Part shown: piece after piece, positions 13,381-58,124 of the stretch
Numbering within the stretch: position 1 is the stretch's first letter
How the letters are laid out: each line of letters begins with the position of its first letter
Assembly (NCBI GenBank): GCA_949283255.1
Contig: CASDRS010000011.1
Location: 1 to 64,000, forward strand
Reading direction: 5' to 3'
Source of the DNA: an uncultured bacterium
Lineage (GTDB): Bacteria; Cyanobacteriota; Vampirovibrionia; Gastranaerophilales; Gastranaerophilaceae
DNA length: 64,000 bases
The notes under the pieces: model-generated
What the model saw: only the letters and a program-made list of their open reading frames with translations
Told to the model about the DNA's origin: nothing
Database searches by the model: none
Program-made: the position numbers and the translations under genes

Positions 13381-16291
13381 TAGATTTTGGCTCTATTAGT
13401 TTTGCATTTTCTAACATTGTTCTAAAATCAGTTTCATTAACATCTTCTTTTTTAACAAAGTTATAATAAAATTCTTCATCACTACAATCTACATTGTATG
13501 CCAAGTCAGGTTTTTTAAGTTTGGTAATAAAGAATTTTTTGTCATCTTTATCGTTATCGTTTTTTCCACCTAAAATGGCTTGTAATTTATCCCAATCTGA
13601 ATAGAAATATTCATTTAGCAAAGGTATAATTTCATCAAACCAAACATCTTTTAATGTTGCCATGTCATATTTGTCCCAGTGCATAAAATAGCTATGACCA
13701 ATTTGATGATCTCTATCTAAAAGATAAGATATTCTTTCATTAATAGTTTTTAATAAGCTTTGCAAATTAATATCATTAACCATTTGTGGCTGATCATTTT
13801 CATCAACAAGTTTTTCAGGTTTTGGCATCATTTCAACGAATTTGAAACGACGACGAAGCGCAATATCAATACTTGCAATAGAACGGTCAGAAGTGTTCAT
13901 TGTGCCAATGATATAGAGATTTGTAGGGACTGTAAAATCATCCTGAGAATATGGCAATTTTACGGATAGAGTTTCTCTTTTATCTTCTTCAATTAGGGTT
14001 ATCAATTCACCAAAGATTTTTGAAATATTCCCTCGATTAATTTCATCAATAACAAGAACTGCATTAGATGATTTTGAATTATTTTTATTATTTATTAAAT
14101 TTAAAAATGTATCCCAATTTATTTTATCATTAAACATCCCTGTAATAGTTGGAGACACAAATTTTGAATTGTAAATACTGTCTGATGAAATATTTATATT
14201 TTTTCTAATCCAATCTACTTTTCTTTGTTGATGTCCATTTTCAATGTCAGAATTATAGAAATAATCACCAGTTATTTTGGCAATACCTTTTATTGTATTC
14301 ATAGATCCTGGAATTACAACAATAACATCTTTACCACTTTTCAAATCATTGTCTATCCATAATTTAAATAAATTTAATTGAGATATACACTGTTTTCGAC
14401 TTTCAAAATCTTCTGGAATTTTAGCTACTATTTCTTCTTGACTGTCACAATCAGAAATATCAATATCATTTCCCCAATTTATTGCAACACAGCCATTTTC
14501 TATACAATATGCAAATAATGATTCATCAGGTATTAATATTTTATACACACTAATGTTGTCTTTATTAAAATTATATGTTACTTTTGTTTCAAGTAATTCC
14601 TTTGCATTATTACATATAGTCTTAAAAATACCATTTTGTAATTTATATCTTAATTCTTTTCCATTTTCTAAATCAGGCTTAATACCTTCAACAAACTCTT
14701 CATATGAATAAGATTGATGGAAGGTAACAAATTCGATTTGACCTTGTTGCTTTAATTTGTCAAATTCCTCTTTTACGACTTCATAGTTTTCGACATTTCC
14801 ACTTTCATCTCTTTGTATCAATTCAGGATTTATTATTTCTATAGCTTTAATAACTGTATTATAAGTTTTTCCAGTTCCTGGAGGTCCATATAAAATTTGG
14901 TTAAGTGGTTGATTTATATTATTTTTCATATTTATATCCTTATTTTGAATTATATCTATAGCTTGAGAGATTTCTTCTCGCAATTTCCACAAATATGTGC
15001 CATCTTTTTTATTTGTAGAAGGTTTTCCCAAATATATGATAGGCCACCATTTCATATTTTCTTCTTGTGCATCTTTATACAATTCACAATTAGTGTAGTT
15101 ATATATTCTCTTTGCAAGACCAAAAGAAGCACCAATATAAAAACTTGGAGTATTTCCATATTTTTCTGCCATTTGTTTACAAGTCGCTCCATTAGCTTCT
15201 TTTTTAAATAATTTAATTATTTTAGTAGAATTACTATCAAATATTGTTTTATTTTTTAATAGTTCTATCCAATTTTCAATGGATAAATTAGGAGAATAAT
15301 CTATAGGCTCCCATTGGCTATCATTATTGTTTTTTTGAATACAGTACTTATCTACAAATCTAATAAAATCTTGAGTATCTAATAATGTATTTTGATAACC
15401 TAAAGTATCATTCATAATTGGAATTAATTTATTTTGGCAGTATTCTTGAAATCTTATATATCTTTTTACTTTATCTGATTTATCTAGCAAATCAGATAAG
15501 TCAAAATGTTTTGCAAAACAATTAAAAGAAGTTTTTGGGTTAAATAGTAAATATTTTTCATAATTGTTAGTGAATAAAAAATAGGATGCATCAACTTCAT
15601 CAGGTAACATATTTTTATTATTCCAATGAACATCATTTTTCAAAAGGTTATGTAGATTATCTAGAAATTCTTTAATTCTGATTTCAAGGTCTTTATTTTC
15701 ATCAAATAAAATCTTTAAACTATTTTTAAATACTTCAATATTATAAGGTTGCATTAAATTATTTAGCCCAGTTCTTTGTAAAAAATATGGCCTAATATTA
15801 TAATTTTCTAAACTCTTTATTTTATTTTCAAAATTATCTAAAGTGTTGAAATTTCCTTGATGTTTTTTAGCATAATCCCACTTATACTCTTCATCATATT
15901 CATCAGATGATTTAAATACTTTATATTGTTTAATATATTCAATTAATTTTTCGGTAGAATTGTTTTCCTGTGGTTGGGCTTCTAAAAATCTTCTATAATT
16001 ATTTAATGGTGTGGATAGCCAACCGCTTTGAGCTTGTCCTGTTTTATTTACAATATCGAAGTTAGGATCATTTTTTAAAATGTTGAAAAACTTGTCATAT
16101 TTATCTAAAGTATCATAGCTATATAAATCTGGATTTAAATTTTTTAATAGGGCGTTATTTGAAAGTCTGATAACTTCGTGAATTTTATCCAATACTCCTT
16201 CTGTGTAAGAAATAAAAGTTGATTCACTAATATTTCTATTTTCTTTTAACCATTTTTTAAATAGATTCTTTTGTATTTGACTCTCACCCAT
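13358..16291 (-). CDS. mcrB: McrB-type AAA+ GTPase with an inserted EVE-like domain
   Basis: A 977-aa motor of the McrBC modified-DNA restriction system. A long N-terminal region (1-450) ends in a module with GATCKQMAEKYGNTPSFYIG and WWPIIYLG, seen in other long McrB homologues. The AAA+ domain has Walker A GPPGTGKT near 470, VTFHQSYSYEEFVEGIKP, Walker B AVLVIDEINRG near 743, and the McrB signature MNTSDRSIASIDIALRRRF near 797. Between Walker A and B (about 570-727) is an extra segment with CVAINWG, KDVIVVIPGS and IAKITGDYFY that looks EVE/PUA-like, a fold that reads modified bases. The SD AAAAGGAG precedes the ATG. Confidence 0.9.
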   Translation of the reverse strand: MGESQIQKNLFKKWLKENRNISESTFISYTEGVLDKIHEVIRLSNNALLKNLNPDLYSYDTLDKYDKFFNILKNDPNFDIVNKTGQAQSGWLSTPLNNYRRFLEAQPQENNSTEKLIEYIKQYKVFKSSDEYDEEYKWDYAKKHQGNFNTLDNFENKIKSLENYNIRPYFLQRTGLNNLMQPYNIEVFKNSLKILFDENKDLEIRIKEFLDNLHNLLKNDVHWNNKNMLPDEVDASYFLFTNNYEKYLLFNPKTSFNCFAKHFDLSDLLDKSDKVKRYIRFQEYCQNKLIPIMNDTLGYQNTLLDTQDFIRFVDKYCIQKNNNDSQWEPIDYSPNLSIENWIELLKNKTIFDSNSTKIIKLFKKEANGATCKQMAEKYGNTPSFYIGASFGLAKRIYNYTNCELYKDAQEENMKWWPIIYLGKPSTNKKDGTYLWKLREEISQAIDIIQNKDINMKNNINQPLNQILYGPPGTGKTYNTVIKAIEIINPELIQRDESGNVENYEVVKEEFDKLKQQGQIEFVTFHQSYSYEEFVEGIKPDLENGKELRYKLQNGIFKTICNNAKELLETKVTYNFNKDNISVYKILIPDESLFAYCIENGCVAINWGNDIDISDCDSQEEIVAKIPEDFESRKQCISQLNLFKLWIDNDLKSGKDVIVVIPGSMNTIKGIAKITGDYFYNSDIENGHQQRKVDWIRKNINISSDSIYNSKFVSPTITGMFNDKINWDTFLNLINNKNNSKSSNAVLVIDEINRGNISKIFGELITLIEEDKRETLSVKLPYSQDDFTVPTNLYIIGTMNTSDRSIASIDIALRRRFKFVEMMPKPEKLVDENDQPQMVNDINLQSLLKTINERISYLLDRDHQIGHSYFMHWDKYDMATLKDVWFDEIIPLLNEYFYSDWDKLQAILGGKNDNDKDDKKFFITKLKKPDLAYNVDCSDEEFYYNFVKKEDVNETDFRTMLENAKLIEPKSNETSNAN

Positions 16292-16330
16292 ACTTAACTC
16301 CTTTTTCTTTAGCGTATCACAAAAAGGGTT

Positions 16331-16831
16331 TTAGGAAAGACTTTTGTATGTTTCGATTATTCTGTCATTGATGTCGATGAAAATGACCTTTTCAAGGCAA
16401 TCATATTTGTTTATAAATTCGGTCACTGTATCATAGGCGATTTTGCATGCTTTATCTATCGGAAAATGATAAACTCCGCAGGATATTGCAGGAAATGCTA
16501 TTGTTTTGATGTTATTTTCTTTTGCAAGATTTAGTGCTGTTGTATAGCAGGATTTCAAAAATTCAGGTTCATTTTTATTGCCACCGTACCAAACAGGGCC
16601 TACCGTATGGATTACATATTTGGCAGGCAGATTATATCCTTTTGTAATTTTAGATTGTCCTGTTTCGCAACCGTTTAGGGTTCTGCATTCAGCAAGCAAT
16701 TCTTTCCCTGCAGCACGATGAATAGCTCCATCAACACCGCCGCCACCAAGTAAGGTTCTATTCGCAGCATTTACGATTGCATCAACGTTCAATCTTGTTA
16801 TATCCCCTTTTAAAATTTCTATTTCTGTCAT
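16331..16831 (-). CDS. macro-domain ADP-ribose/O-acetyl-ADP-ribose hydrolase
   Basis: A 166-aa single-domain MacroD-type protein. Motifs: [19 protein letters not shown] at the N-terminus, [16 protein letters not shown] for diphosphate and ribose binding, [15 protein letters not shown], and [12 protein letters not shown]. The family hydrolyses O-acetyl-ADP-ribose and removes mono-ADP-ribose from proteins or nucleic acids. It has its own SD (AGGGG) and lies 40 bp upstream of mcrB on the same strand. It may be a housekeeping YmdB homologue or the antagonist of an ADP-ribosylating toxin; no partner toxin is adjacent. Confidence 0.93.
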
Positions 16832-16876
16832 AATTTACCCCTCGCTTAATTACCTTTTAGTTTATTTTATCACTTT

Positions 16877-16893
16877 TGTGTCCAATTGATACA
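16877..16893. promoter_or_regulatory. dyad TGTGTC-N5-GATACA, copy 2
   Basis: Part of a 21-bp imperfect palindrome (16875-16895) with arms TTTGT and ACAAA. It lies 46 bp upstream of the macro-domain gene start and so could control it or a rightward promoter. It is similar to the site at 11799. Confidence 0.35.
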
Positions 16894-16973
16894 AATTTAA
16901 ATTAAACAGTTCCAATTGAGGTTAATAAGAGCGATTACTGTAGGTAGGAACAATACTTGATGAGGCAACGTAG

Positions 16974-17108
16974 ATGAAAAAAGATATGACAAACAATACA
17001 ATTGTAATTGGACTTGGCAAAGGTGGCATTAGTGCAATGAACTATTTGTATCCAAAAGCTCAAGAGGATGGTACAGAATTTTTAAGTATTGGATTTATAT
17101 GCCTATAA
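16974..17108 (+). pseudogene. 44-codon remnant, glycine-rich nucleotide-binding N-terminus
   Basis: An ATG ORF that encodes NNTIVIGLGKGGISAMNYL and soon stops. The VIGLGKGG-x3-MNYL pattern recalls the N-terminal glycine-rich loop of FtsZ/tubulin-like or Rossmann proteins, and the hydrophobic SIGFICL would be the next strand. No downstream continuation was found by eye. It is probably a truncated gene end left by recombination; it could also be chance. Confidence 0.3.
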
Positions 17109-17153
17109 AGCATTATAACCTATGTAATATAAGTATTTGCTATTTTATGAAAC

Positions 17154-17196
17154 TTCGTAAATAATGAGACTATGAAACAAAAAGTTATTTTACGAA
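17154..17196. repeat. inverted repeat in non-coding gap
   Basis: TTCGTAAATAA (17154-17164) and TTATTTTACGAA (17185-17196) pair with one bulged T around a 20-nt loop. It has no obvious T-run after it, so it is not a typical terminator. Confidence 0.35.
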
Positions 17197-17400
17197 ATTT
17201 AAAAGATTTCTTTTCTTATGTAAGTATGAGTAATCAATGCTTATGCTTTCTGCAAGGTTGAGTAAGCAAAAAAACTTATAGCAATATTCTCTAAGTATAA
17301 AAAGAATTGTTTACTAACTTGTATGATGTTCAAAAGAAAATTAGTTATCTGGATTTTTTAATAGTTTCGCAATCTCAAGAGAAATTTTGAGGAGGTATAA

Positions 17401-53838: not shown

Positions 53839-56214
53839 TTAGATGAATAAGTTTGAATTTGAATTATTACTTTCGGCGATATATTTCGCAACTCCTGCAA
53901 TTTCTACGCCGTCAATTAATTCTTCTTGTTTTATTCCCATTACATCCATACTCATTTGACATGCTATAAATTTAATTCCTTGTTTTTGGGCTTGTTCAAT
54001 CAGTTCTTTTAGAGTTGAGATGTTTTTGTGTTTCATTACTTGTTTCATCATAAACGTTCCCAATCCGCCCATATTCAATTTAGATAGGGTTAGTTTATCC
54101 GCCCCTTTTGGCATCATCATACCAAACATTTTGTCGATAAAAGATTTTTTGATATTTATATTATCTTTTCTCAAAATGTTTAGTCCCCAAAATGTGAAAA
54201 ATAACGTTACGTCATATCCGCTTGCTTTTGCTCCGTTTGCTATTATAAAGGCTGCCAGAGCTTTATCCAAATCGTTTGAAAATACAACTATTGTTTTTGC
54301 GTTGTGTACATTTTGTGGTTGGGTTTGTGGTTGAAGTTTCCCTTTTTGGATTGTTGCGGTTATTTTTTTGTCTTTGCTATCCAAATTTAACAAAGTGTTT
54401 CCTGTAGAGTTGCACCAAGCTTCTACATCTGAATAAAACCCTTTATCTGTTGCGGTTATTTCAAGAACTTCTCCGTCATTAATGTTTGAGATGTTTTCTG
54501 CTAACTTCATTATTGGCCCCGGACAAGATAGTCCGCAGGCATCAACTTTCAGGCTGCCTGTTGCTACTGCTGTCAAGGGTGCTTCCTGGTGCTTTTTGGT
54601 AACCTTGTTTTGTTTATCTTTCTGGAGTTCTTTATAAAGTTTCATACCACCCATAAATGAATATACATTGTTATAGCCTTTCTGAATTAGTATTCTGGAG
54701 GCAAGATAGCTTGTGTATCCTGAATCACAAACTAAAATAACTTTTTTATCTTTTGGAATTTCGTCTACTCTTGTTCTTAATTGCGCTAATGGGATGTTGA
54801 TTGCGCCTTCCATAGTTTTGGTTCTGTAGCTGTCAGGTATTCTTACATCTACAATGTATGAGCCTTCTATATCCTCGTAAAATGCAGGTTTTACAAAACC
54901 TCTTAGCACGTTATCAGCACACATCCCTAAGATATTTACAGGATCTTTTGCTGATGAATATGGCGGCGCATAGCATAGTTCGCTATCCAATAACTCTTGT
55001 ATTGTTCCGTTGTTTCGCATAATTGATGCGATTACATCAATTCTTTTTTCAACTCCTTCCTGACCCACAGCTTGTGCTCCATATATTTTGCCGTTTTTGT
55101 CAAAAAGCAATTTGTATAAAGTTGATGTCGCATCAGGGTAATATCCTGCGTGTGAGTTGCCGAATGCAAGAATTTTCCAATACGGGATGTTTGAGCGTTT
55201 TAGCTGTTTTTCATTATATCCTGTGCAGGCTACTGTATAATCAAAAACTTTTAAGACTGATGTGCCTTGCGATTTTTTATATGTCGAATTTATTCCGCAC
55301 AAGTTGTCTGCAATAATTCTTCCTTGTCTGTTTGCCGGACCTGCAAGAGGAATTAGAACATCTTCATCTGTTATAAAGCTTTTTATTTCGACACTGTCTC
55401 CTCCAGCAAAAATATCAGGATCAGTTGTTTGCATTTTATCATTAACTTTAATTCCTCTATTTGTATCCAACCCGCAATCTTTTGCAAGTGTTATTTCAGG
55501 TCTTACTCCTATTGATAAAATCGCGATATCGTATGAGATTTTTTTGCCTGACGATAATTCGATTTCGTTTTTAGAAAAACTTTTAACTCCATCTGATAAG
55601 ATTAGCTCAATTCCGTTTGCTCGCATTTCATTTTGCGCAAAGCTTGCTATTTCATAATCTACTGGAGTCAAAATTTGATCTGACATTTCAACTACTTTTG
55701 TTTCAATATTAAGGTGCGCAAGGTTCTCTGCCATCTCAATCCCGATAAAACCTCCGCCAACTACAACGGCTGTTTTTACATTATTTTGTGAGATATATTC
55801 TTTAATTTTGTCTGCATCTGATAAGGTTCTAACAGTAAAGATATTGTCTGTTGTATCAAGCCCTTCCAATTTCGGCACTATAGGATTTGCGCCTTGTGCC
55901 AAAACTAATTTGTCATAGTAGTATTTTTCGTTGTTATTTGTTGTAACAAATTTTTCTTTTCTGTTGATTGCGGTAACTTCGCAGTTTAGTTTTACGTTAA
56001 TGTTAAACATATTTTGGAAACGTGCGGGAGTGGATACAAGAATTTTTTCTCTCTCGCTTATTACGCCTGAGCAATAATACGGGAGTCCGCAATTGGCTAT
56101 AGAAACTTCTCCTGTGCGCTCCAAAATCGTTATTTCACAATTTTCGTCCAGTCTTCTTAATCTTGCAGCACAACTTGCTCCGCAAGCTCCACCGCCTATT
56201 ATAACTACTTTCAT
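53839..56214 (-). CDS. CoA-disulfide reductase-like/rhodanese/TusA/DsrE fusion
   Basis: A 791-aa four-domain sulfur-transfer enzyme. The FAD/NAD(P) disulfide reductase (about 1-440) has GGGACGASCAARL and the redox Cys in ANCGLPYYCSG. The rhodanese (about 445-540) has the active Cys in VILVCDSGYTS. The TusA-like domain (about 555-630) has GLSCPGPIMKLAE. A DsrE-like domain (about 640-791) has IVVFSNDLDKALAAF and FIACQMSMDVMGI. Such fusions reduce CoA persulfides/polysulfides and relay sulfane sulfur. It lies upstream of and divergent to the sulfite reductase/siroheme region. SD GAGGT. Confidence 0.9.
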   Translation of the reverse strand: MKVVIIGGGACGASCAARLRRLDENCEITILERTGEVSIANCGLPYYCSGVISEREKILVSTPARFQNMFNINVKLNCEVTAINRKEKFVTTNNNEKYYYDKLVLAQGANPIVPKLEGLDTTDNIFTVRTLSDADKIKEYISQNNVKTAVVVGGGFIGIEMAENLAHLNIETKVVEMSDQILTPVDYEIASFAQNEMRANGIELILSDGVKSFSKNEIELSSGKKISYDIAILSIGVRPEITLAKDCGLDTNRGIKVNDKMQTTDPDIFAGGDSVEIKSFITDEDVLIPLAGPANRQGRIIADNLCGINSTYKKSQGTSVLKVFDYTVACTGYNEKQLKRSNIPYWKILAFGNSHAGYYPDATSTLYKLLFDKNGKIYGAQAVGQEGVEKRIDVIASIMRNNGTIQELLDSELCYAPPYSSAKDPVNILGMCADNVLRGFVKPAFYEDIEGSYIVDVRIPDSYRTKTMEGAINIPLAQLRTRVDEIPKDKKVILVCDSGYTSYLASRILIQKGYNNVYSFMGGMKLYKELQKDKQNKVTKKHQEAPLTAVATGSLKVDACGLSCPGPIMKLAENISNINDGEVLEITATDKGFYSDVEAWCNSTGNTLLNLDSKDKKITATIQKGKLQPQTQPQNVHNAKTIVVFSNDLDKALAAFIIANGAKASGYDVTLFFTFWGLNILRKDNINIKKSFIDKMFGMMMPKGADKLTLSKLNMGGLGTFMMKQVMKHKNISTLKELIEQAQKQGIKFIACQMSMDVMGIKQEELIDGVEIAGVAKYIAESNNSNSNLFI

Positions 56215-56345: not shown

Positions 56346-56375
56346 TTGACAAAAAATAAAGTTTTGTTTTATACT
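56346..56375 (+). promoter_or_regulatory. consensus sigma-70 promoter of the leader
   Basis: -35 TTGACA (56346-56351), 18-bp spacer, -10 TATACT (56370-56375). It is the best -35/-10 pair that I found in the window. The palindrome CCAAATTTGG ends 3 bp upstream of the -35 and may be an activator or repressor site. Confidence 0.7.
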
Positions 56376-56392
56376 ACGGGTGTAGGAAAAAT

Positions 56393-56476
56393 ATGATAAA
56401 TTTATTTACTGTAAAATCTAATAACTCGTCATCCTCATCCAAGTACTCCGGGACTTGTATGAATTTTGGCGTTTAG
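56393..56476 (+). CDS. 27-aa Ser-rich leader peptide
   Basis: ATG with AGGA at 5-nt spacing. It encodes a peptide with seven serines, five of them consecutive (TCG TCA TCC TCA TCC), and residues VKSNNSSSSSKYSGTCMNF. Its last third covers the 5' arm of the antiterminator helix (56449-56456). The layout is that of amino-acid-responsive attenuators; expression is not shown. Confidence 0.45.
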   Translation: MINLFTVKSNNSSSSSKYSGTCMNFGV

Positions 56477-56544
56477 ATTTTTTAAGCAGTGAAATTTATG
56501 ATAAATATTTAAGTCCCGCTATAGTAGTTTAGGCGGGATTTTTT
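56449..56544 (+). promoter_or_regulatory. mutually exclusive antiterminator and terminator helices
   Basis: Antiterminator: CGGGACTT (56449-56456) pairs perfectly with AAGTCCCG (56511-56518). Terminator: the same AAGTCCCGCT (56511-56520) pairs with AGGCGGGATT (56531-56540) and is followed by a T-run (56539-56544). Only one helix can form at a time. Terminator readthrough would feed the gene at 56571. Confidence 0.6.
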
Positions 56545-56570
56545 AGTATGTAAAAATATAAGGGGAACAA

Positions 56571-58124
56571 ATGAGATTAACTATTGAGAATTATGATGTC
56601 AAACGTAGACCACAAAGTTTTAAAGGTGTATTGGATGGTGCTTTAACAAGCAGTTTAAAGTTTCTTGATACTAACGAAATGGCAAATGCAGTTTTGATAG
56701 ATGTAGGTGCTATGGTAACTCCCCGAACTTATTACGATACTAAAGCCAGAAACAAATATGCAGGTGCAGAAACATTTTTTAGAGAAATAAGCGGAACATT
56801 TATTAATTGTTTATCTGCAGGTTTGTTGAGTATAGGAATTGCTAAAATTGCAAATCATTATGTTATGCCTGAAGTGAAGATTGATTCTAATACTTGGTTT
56901 TCAAAAGATTCTATTGGAGTTTTGAAGGCTGCTTGGGATAATGCAGATAATAATGTTGGACAATATATAAGAAATGTTTTTGATAATTTAGGCGGACGTG
57001 ATTATAAAGATATAAGATATTTTAAAGATATTGATTGGGCTAATGTGGATTGGCAAGATTCAAAAGGTTGGGAAAAAATCCATTGGGATAATGCCGGCTT
57101 TGCAGGTCTTGCGGAGAGATTGAAAACCAAAGACGGTATGATTTCAGCGATGACCAATTTAATTAATTCTAAAAATATAACCAATAATGATAGAAAAAAT
57201 GCATTGAAACTAATGCAGGCAAGAATTGTAAACGCGTTAGGTGCTGAGAGAGATATTCACGTAAAAATTGGCGGAAAAGACTTGTCTGCGACTCTTGATA
57301 ATGTACTTCGTGATACTTATGATATGGGTAAAAAAGTTTTCGCGAATAGTGGTGTTGACGTAAATCTTGCATTGAAAAAGATTGCAAGAGTTAATAATAT
57401 CAAAATATTTGGAGCATTGGCCGGTGCTTCTGCTTTGGGGCTTACTAATCAATATATAAATAGAAAAATTACAGAAAAGAGAACTGGCAAAAAAGGTTTT
57501 GTAGGTGATGTTGATTATGCTAACAAAGCTAAAGCGAGCGAGGAGCAGCCGCAGAAAGTTAATCAAAAATCATTGTGGTTGAAAAAAATATTGGCAAGTG
57601 CAGGCATGATTGCAATGGTAGTTACTGTTATGAGAGTTAAAAACTTCAAAGATTTTGTTAAAAAATTAGAATTTACCGGTCCTGTTACAAGTGGAAATGC
57701 TATCAAGACTGTATATGCTTCAACTATAGTGGGTCGATTCCTTGCTGCTGATAACGATACTGAATTGAGGGAGTCTGTAACCCGTGATTATTTCGGATTC
57801 TTAAACTGGCTTGTGTTTGGCGGATTTGCTGCCAAAGGTGTTGCTAATATGTTAGATAAAGATTGTAAGAATTTATTTAATATAAAGAAAAACGGAAAAG
57901 GGCTTAAACATTGGTTAAATGACCTAAGCTTAAAAACACATGCTGAAATTGCTTCAAAGGGTACTAATTTTGCAAAGAAAAACTTATGGAAACTTAATGC
58001 AGCACATATTGGAGGGCTTGCATATTCTGCAGTTACACTTGGGTTTATCTTGCCTATGATTAATGATAAAATGACAAGATACAAAACTCAAAAACAGCAG
58101 GCAGCACAGGAAAAAACTGCTTAA
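56571..58124 (+). CDS. hypothetical membrane protein with FKG motif
   Basis: A 517-aa protein of unknown function. The N-terminus reads VKRRPQSFKGVLDGALTSSL, containing the short 'SFKG' motif. Predicted hydrophobic segments lie near 85-105, 275-295, 340-360, 400-425 and 480-500, with a large polar insert (about 110-270) bearing DIDWANVDWQDSKGWEKIHW. Clear SD (AGGGG). It lies after an attenuator-like leader and before the sulfite reductase gene. Probably lineage-specific; no pathway can be named. Confidence 0.6.
   Translation: MRLTIENYDVKRRPQSFKGVLDGALTSSLKFLDTNEMANAVLIDVGAMVTPRTYYDTKARNKYAGAETFFREISGTFINCLSAGLLSIGIAKIANHYVMPEVKIDSNTWFSKDSIGVLKAAWDNADNNVGQYIRNVFDNLGGRDYKDIRYFKDIDWANVDWQDSKGWEKIHWDNAGFAGLAERLKTKDGMISAMTNLINSKNITNNDRKNALKLMQARIVNALGAERDIHVKIGGKDLSATLDNVLRDTYDMGKKVFANSGVDVNLALKKIARVNNIKIFGALAGASALGLTNQYINRKITEKRTGKKGFVGDVDYANKAKASEEQPQKVNQKSLWLKKILASAGMIAMVVTVMRVKNFKDFVKKLEFTGPVTSGNAIKTVYASTIVGRFLAADNDTELRESVTRDYFGFLNWLVFGGFAAKGVANMLDKDCKNLFNIKKNGKGLKHWLNDLSLKTHAEIASKGTNFAKKNLWKLNAAHIGGLAYSAVTLGFILPMINDKMTRYKTQKQQAAQEKTA

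Follow-up and report, generated by a model that had tools for sequence, protein, structure and literature searches.

A putative serine-sensing transcription attenuator with cysteine and histidine counterparts upstream of uncharacterised membrane protein genes in Gastranaerophilales

A short leader ORF with a run of UCN serine codons overlaps three mutually exclusive hairpins (a putative 1:2, and 2:3 and 3:4) 5' of a gene for a 517-aa uncharacterised protein in the window, the 64,000-nucleotide stretch of DNA analysed here, whose host genome groups with Candidatus Gastranaerophilales, gut relatives of the cyanobacteria. Judged from sequence, this leader is very probably (about 0.86) a ribosome-mediated transcription attenuator that senses charged tRNA-Ser(UCN), and the 517-aa protein would be made under serine shortage. 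The mechanism is of a known kind; the sensing of serine, the class of target and a change of specificity among relatives look new. The parts of the element are as follows.

56346-56375, + strand: sigma-70-type promoter, TTGACA (56346-56351), 18-nt spacer and TATACT (56370-56375), 11 of 12 matches
56392-56503, + strand: long-range helix P1, early leader codons (about 56392-56420) paired with the region past the stop codon (about 56472-56503)
56393-56476, + strand: leader ORF of 27 codons, MINLFTVKSNNSSSSSKYSGTCMNFGV and a stop codon; ATG at 56393 with an AGGA Shine-Dalgarno-like element just 5'
56426-56440, + strand: regulatory run of five UCN Ser codons, codons 12-16 (TCG TCA TCC TCA TCC)
56441-56444, + strand: arm 1 (AAGU), pairing with arm 2 as the putative anti-antiterminator hairpin adjoining the Ser run
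56449-56456, + strand: arm 2 (CGGGACTT; RNA CGGGACUU), antiterminator 5' arm, perfect complement of arm 3
56511-56518, + strand: arm 3 (AAGTCCCG; RNA AAGUCCCG), antiterminator 3' arm and terminator 5' arm
56511-56544, + strand: intrinsic terminator (arms 3 and 4) with U-tract, GTCCCGC...GCGGGAT followed by a T run, end at about 56544
56571-58124, + strand: target gene for the 517-aa uncharacterised protein, ATG at 56571, about six TM-like segments

An earlier note on this DNA had described a consensus promoter, a 27-codon ORF with five consecutive Ser codons and a perfect 8-bp antiterminator helix whose 3' arm is also used by a terminator; all were found at the positions listed, and the antiterminator 5' arm does lie inside the leader ORF, as that note had said. 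Arm 1 can pair with ACUU at 56453-56456 in a short hairpin right behind the Ser run; neither this hairpin nor P1 figures in that note. A TTGAC element stands upstream of nearly all orthologous leaders. The 166-nt leader has a folding energy of -44.1 kcal/mol (z = -3.95 against 200 shuffles). In 864 kb of the genome (47%), a scan for short run-bearing ORFs that have a terminator and then a gene behind them gave a run of five at two loci only, this Ser leader and a His leader described below. The leaders matched no curated Rfam family at the gathering score, the T-box riboswitch included.

In the proposed mechanism, charged tRNA-Ser(UCN) would let the ribosome reach the stop codon; arm 2 would then be either masked or returned to arm 1, and formation of the terminator (3:4) would end transcription. 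With serine short, the ribosome would stall on the Ser run and cover arm 1, arm 2 would pair with arm 3, and the 517-aa gene would be transcribed. Helix P1 would be expected to favour the terminator when the leader is untranslated. We infer stalling, antitermination and induction by serine shortage from the arrangement of these elements and from simulated folding, in which a ribosome of assumed footprint size was taken to block the RNA that it covers and the rest was folded. When the A site is placed at any of Ser1-Ser4, before synthesis of the terminator 3' arm, the antiterminator hairpin forms in the simulation (about -21 to -22 kcal/mol); the terminator forms if the ribosome is absent or is placed at the stop codon.

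The leader is widely kept among relatives. Among 120 genes homologous to that for the 517-aa protein, 116 carry a leader ORF with a run (112 located by script and four read by eye). The remaining four are L093 (G369:C66), where the promoter is retained and the run lost, L153 (G342:C33), where a stop codon immediately 5' of the Cys run amounts to a natural loss of the switch, and two order-level relatives. The run is Ser in 65 of the 116 leaders and Cys in the other 51. Ser-leader genes form a single clade (support 99) of the protein tree, nested among Cys-leader genes, so that a single Cys-to-Ser switch suffices, and the leader would thus have evolved from a cysteine-sensing form; L093 was counted as Ser by assumption in the tree and in the composition counts below, but it lies inside the Ser clade and the conclusions are independent of it. 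One Ser-type and one Cys-type gene occur together in five genomes.

Conservation of the residue of the run is apparent from the codons. Ser-run codons in relatives are TCC (200), TCA (124), TCT (24), TCG (2) and AGY (10), about 97% TCN, and in the last four run codons synonymous differences between relatives (2571) exceed non-synonymous ones (1550). As to conservation of the Ser codons, suggested by the earlier note as a check, the residue of the run is kept while its codons vary synonymously; relatives outside the Ser clade carry a Cys run instead. Some Ser runs include a Cys (SSSSCK). Outside the run the leader peptides differ widely, although close relatives have in common a C-terminal stretch, GTCMNFGV. 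A covariance model of the Ser leaders searched against 191 genomes returned no further convincing Ser leader; the weaker matches inspected were mostly plain terminators, and two were His leaders.

Arms 1-4 were located in 107 of the 112 script-located leaders, and covariation of the pairings was assessed with 52 distinct sets of arms, aligned in register. Pairing stands at 98.1% for the antiterminator (2:3) and 97.3% for the terminator (3:4); doubly changed cells number 30 and 48, where shuffles give 7.9 and 13.3. Complementarity was one ground on which the arms were picked, so these percentages are inflated; neither the doubly changed cells nor an own-versus-chimera test depends solely on that choice. 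Sliding the partner by one base lowers pairing to 58-68%. In the own-versus-chimera test, the arm 2 region of each leader was set against the downstream region of distant relatives, and each leader's own alternative pairing was supported. Hairpin 1:2 (AAGU/ACUU) is 89.6% paired, with no covariation beyond shuffles. Helix P1 is supported by this test among leaders of the Ser clade, whose own pairing exceeds that of chimeras, but not among Cys-type leaders. Both helices for which the earlier note had sought covariation thus show it. Relatives lacking the ORF or the alternative pairing would have spoken against that note's reading of the layout as amino-acid attenuation; in the event both are kept, with compensatory changes, and the reading is supported. 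Additions to that note are the Cys-run leaders and, described below, the cysteine operon behind a Cys leader, the avoidance of the residue presumed to be sensed, and the His version.

The composition of the target genes follows the run. In Ser-leader target genes, TCN codons make up 2.62% against 4.45% in flanking genes and are lower in 60 of 62, with AGY at 1.63% against 1.62%, that is, not depleted; Cys-leader genes, at 5.38% TCN, are not TCN-depleted. The depletion of TCN and not AGY matches leader runs that are themselves about 97% TCN, and a family with about 40% fewer TCN Ser codons than its neighbouring genes would be suited to expression during serine shortage. In Cys-leader proteins the Cys total is 27 against an expectation of 327, 25 of the 51 are free of Cys, and the average is 0.7 Cys per protein against 3 in the Ser clade; the Ser/Cys contrast counts as one evolutionary event, and the His case below as a separate instance. 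Because TCN but not AGY is depleted in Ser-type genes and Cys is nearly absent from Cys-type proteins, the protein avoids what its leader is predicted to sense, down to codon class.

Histidine provides that separate instance. The Ser-leader covariance model search uncovered a second family of membrane proteins (415-480 aa), whose leaders have His runs, for example MIISNVIKFHHHHHCNLKRL (L427), together with a terminator; L427 belongs to the same genome as the window (contig C2, G000:C2:92674-94011), and the His-leader loci fall within L417-L441. The 22 proteins from these loci hold 9 His where 145 are expected, and 16 are His-free; the counts in three distant homologs that lack a His leader are 2, 4 and 5. 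Profile comparison gave no reliable homology between this family and that of the 517-aa protein. A search for hisG was negative in 32 of 34 genomes, among them that of the window, but positive in 13 of 14 control genomes, so the genomes without a detected hisG probably depend on external histidine. Outgroup homologs of the His family (L444, L445 and L446) have no His run and share a conserved short ORF ending in WGL and a stop codon, followed by AATCCCTTGAGTTATGGAG, which is possibly a different control element.

The Cys form of the leader also occurs away from the membrane protein. An exact pattern search located a Cys-type leader before an operon of a Cys_Met_Meta_PP PLP enzyme and a cysteine-synthase-type PALP enzyme (G036 and G041) and, in G196, before both enzymes and a methyltransferase-like gene. 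Pfam and NCBIfam were run on the G036 and G196 genes, and the best NCBIfam model for the PLP enzyme was cystathionine gamma-lyase/homocysteine desulfhydrase, with a score below cut-off. The position of the leader before a cysteine-metabolism operon ties this leader class to cysteine independently of the uncharacterised protein. An SGNH-hydrolase-like gene lies 3' of the Cys-leader cysteine operon in L333 and L334; a similar gene, and a DtxR-like regulator with a cysteine-rich C-terminal tail, recur beside Cys-type membrane genes (L122, L138, L147, L162 and others).

The earlier note had placed the target outside known serine pathways and called it uncharacterised, which is borne out: the 517-aa protein has no convincing Pfam, NCBIfam or PDB sequence match. 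Its AlphaFold2 model, a confident one (pLDDT 82, pTM 0.82), gave no PDB or viral match worth naming in fold comparison, and no transporter fold was matched. Neighbouring genes vary between genomes and are often sulfur-related, both in Cys-type loci and at the 517-aa locus, where they include a sulfite/nitrite reductase by Pfam and genes that we take to be MnmA-like and BioB-like. An operon with the downstream sulfite/nitrite reductase was considered and rejected; the arrangement is not conserved, and an opposite-strand gene intervenes in the nearest relative. Divergent from the leader, a 791-aa fusion of pyridine nucleotide-disulfide oxidoreductase, rhodanese, TusA and DsrE-like domains is encoded at 53839-56214 (- strand) of the window. 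Distant paralogs of the 517-aa protein stand in tandem at about 14095-17310 of G000:C7 (L181 and L185), with equivalents in other genomes; no leader or attenuator was seen at them, and they have in common an unusual upstream region, TTTACATT...GTAGTGTTGTTATAAT. A link of the Ser leader to serine auxotrophy was likewise set aside as unsupported, the presence of a full-length serine-biosynthesis dehydrogenase (SerA) showing no clear difference between Ser-leader and other genomes and not following leader type. The 517-aa protein most likely acquires or spares the scarce amino acid, a role that its composition and predicted regulation suggest and that we propose with low confidence.

Two other accounts of the leader itself were weighed. 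The region could instead produce a free-standing small RNA, stable and with its 3' end at the terminator, in which case the ORF would be incidental and the gene read by leak-through; the unusually good fold of the whole leader (z = -3.95), the long P1 that encloses the ORF and the possession of its own promoter and terminator all suit such an RNA. It would be highly improbable nonetheless, given that Ser and Cys runs are kept at residue level through synonymous changes, that P1 is unsupported in Cys-type leaders, that the alternative pairing covaries and that the codon content of the target tracks the run. Still harder to credit is arrest by the nascent leader peptide in response to a small molecule or protein, in place of the sensing of tRNA charging: the GTCMNFGV terminus common to close relatives would fit, but the peptides diverge outside the run, the run itself was swapped from Cys to Ser, the downstream proteins avoid its amino acid, and a Cys leader heads a cysteine-metabolism operon.

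Attenuation by Ser codons being preferred, what the signal means and what the protein does can each be read in another way. Cysteine is commonly made from serine, and so the leader might report cysteine or general starvation via serine and not serine itself. The ancestral leaders, which have Cys runs, and the Cys held within some Ser runs would agree with this, as would the finding that ribosomes become denser at Cys as well as Ser codons in Bacillus subtilis starved of serine (PMC3862929); it is unlikely, since, compared with Cys-leader proteins, those of the Ser clade have more Cys per protein (3 against 0.7) and are encoded with fewer TCN Ser codons. A good deal closer to even odds, though short of them, is that the attenuator works as described and the membrane protein, in place of acquiring serine, is a starvation-response factor (of the cell surface, of sulfur/redox or of storage) whose expression a shortage of Ser, Cys or His happens to time. 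The protein matched no transporter family or fold, the neighbours differ between genomes and are in part sulfur-related, and leaderless homologs occur as a tandem pair, all of which would suit a factor of this kind; against it, a Cys leader elsewhere heads a biosynthesis-type operon, and the failure to find hisG in most genomes with the His version makes a biosynthetic role unlikely there and acquisition a natural need.

Taking serine attenuation together with its Cys and His counterparts, we tentatively suggest, as an idea with somewhat less than an even chance, that gut Gastranaerophilales hold several apparently unrelated membrane protein families, each under an attenuator for one amino acid (Ser, Cys or His) and each stripped of that residue or of its starvation-sensitive codons. 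These would constitute a new class of starvation-induced acquisition proteins in bacteria unable to make all amino acids, with a sensor that can be re-set and a target whose composition follows. The locus would be a natural example of a one-step change of sensor, cysteine giving way to serine and the target codons following, and it offers a handle on the role of an uncharacterised membrane family, since a single amino acid is indicated both by its predicted expression condition and by its composition. For other uncharacterised genes, the amino acid sensed could be recognised by a simple rule, that the leader run names the residue which the protein lacks.

Like trp- and his-type attenuators, the element combines a leader ORF with a regulatory codon run, alternative 2:3 and 3:4 hairpins, a putative 1:2 hairpin and an intrinsic terminator before the gene; unlike them, it would sense serine (Cys or His in relatives), its targets are uncharacterised membrane proteins, and its hosts are Gastranaerophilales. 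Transcription attenuation would thereby be brought to a lineage with none reliably reported before. In mycobacteria, the poly-cysteine leader ORFs of Canestrari et al. 2020 are reportedly leaderless. According to a 2016 survey, reliable data for attenuation in cyanobacteria did not exist (PMC4833913). Short ORFs with a Cys run precede cys or cbs genes in Mycobacterium, P. acnes and B. longum, and no conserved terminator hairpins were reported for the Mycobacterium leaders (PMC1262725). The short Cys-run ORF is also seen in the Gastranaerophilales Cys form, which differs from the mycobacterial type in its Shine-Dalgarno-like AGGA, its covarying intrinsic terminator and the switch of one clade to Ser. 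During serine starvation of B. subtilis, ribosomes slow at UCN codons while AGC/AGU codons show no slowing (PMC3862929); a general reason for such codon choice lies in the selective charging of tRNA isoacceptors (PMC1183508). In sinR, as predicted here, UCN are the starvation-sensitive Ser codons and AGC/AGU are not, but there the codons lie inside the regulated coding sequence with no dedicated RNA, whereas here they lie in an attenuator leader and the target avoids them. Amino-acid biosynthetic enzymes show a low cognate bias, and starvation proteins hold less of the missing amino acid (PMC4209129); in the proteins described here the avoidance is near total for Cys and His and codon-class specific for Ser, and the proteins are uncharacterised.
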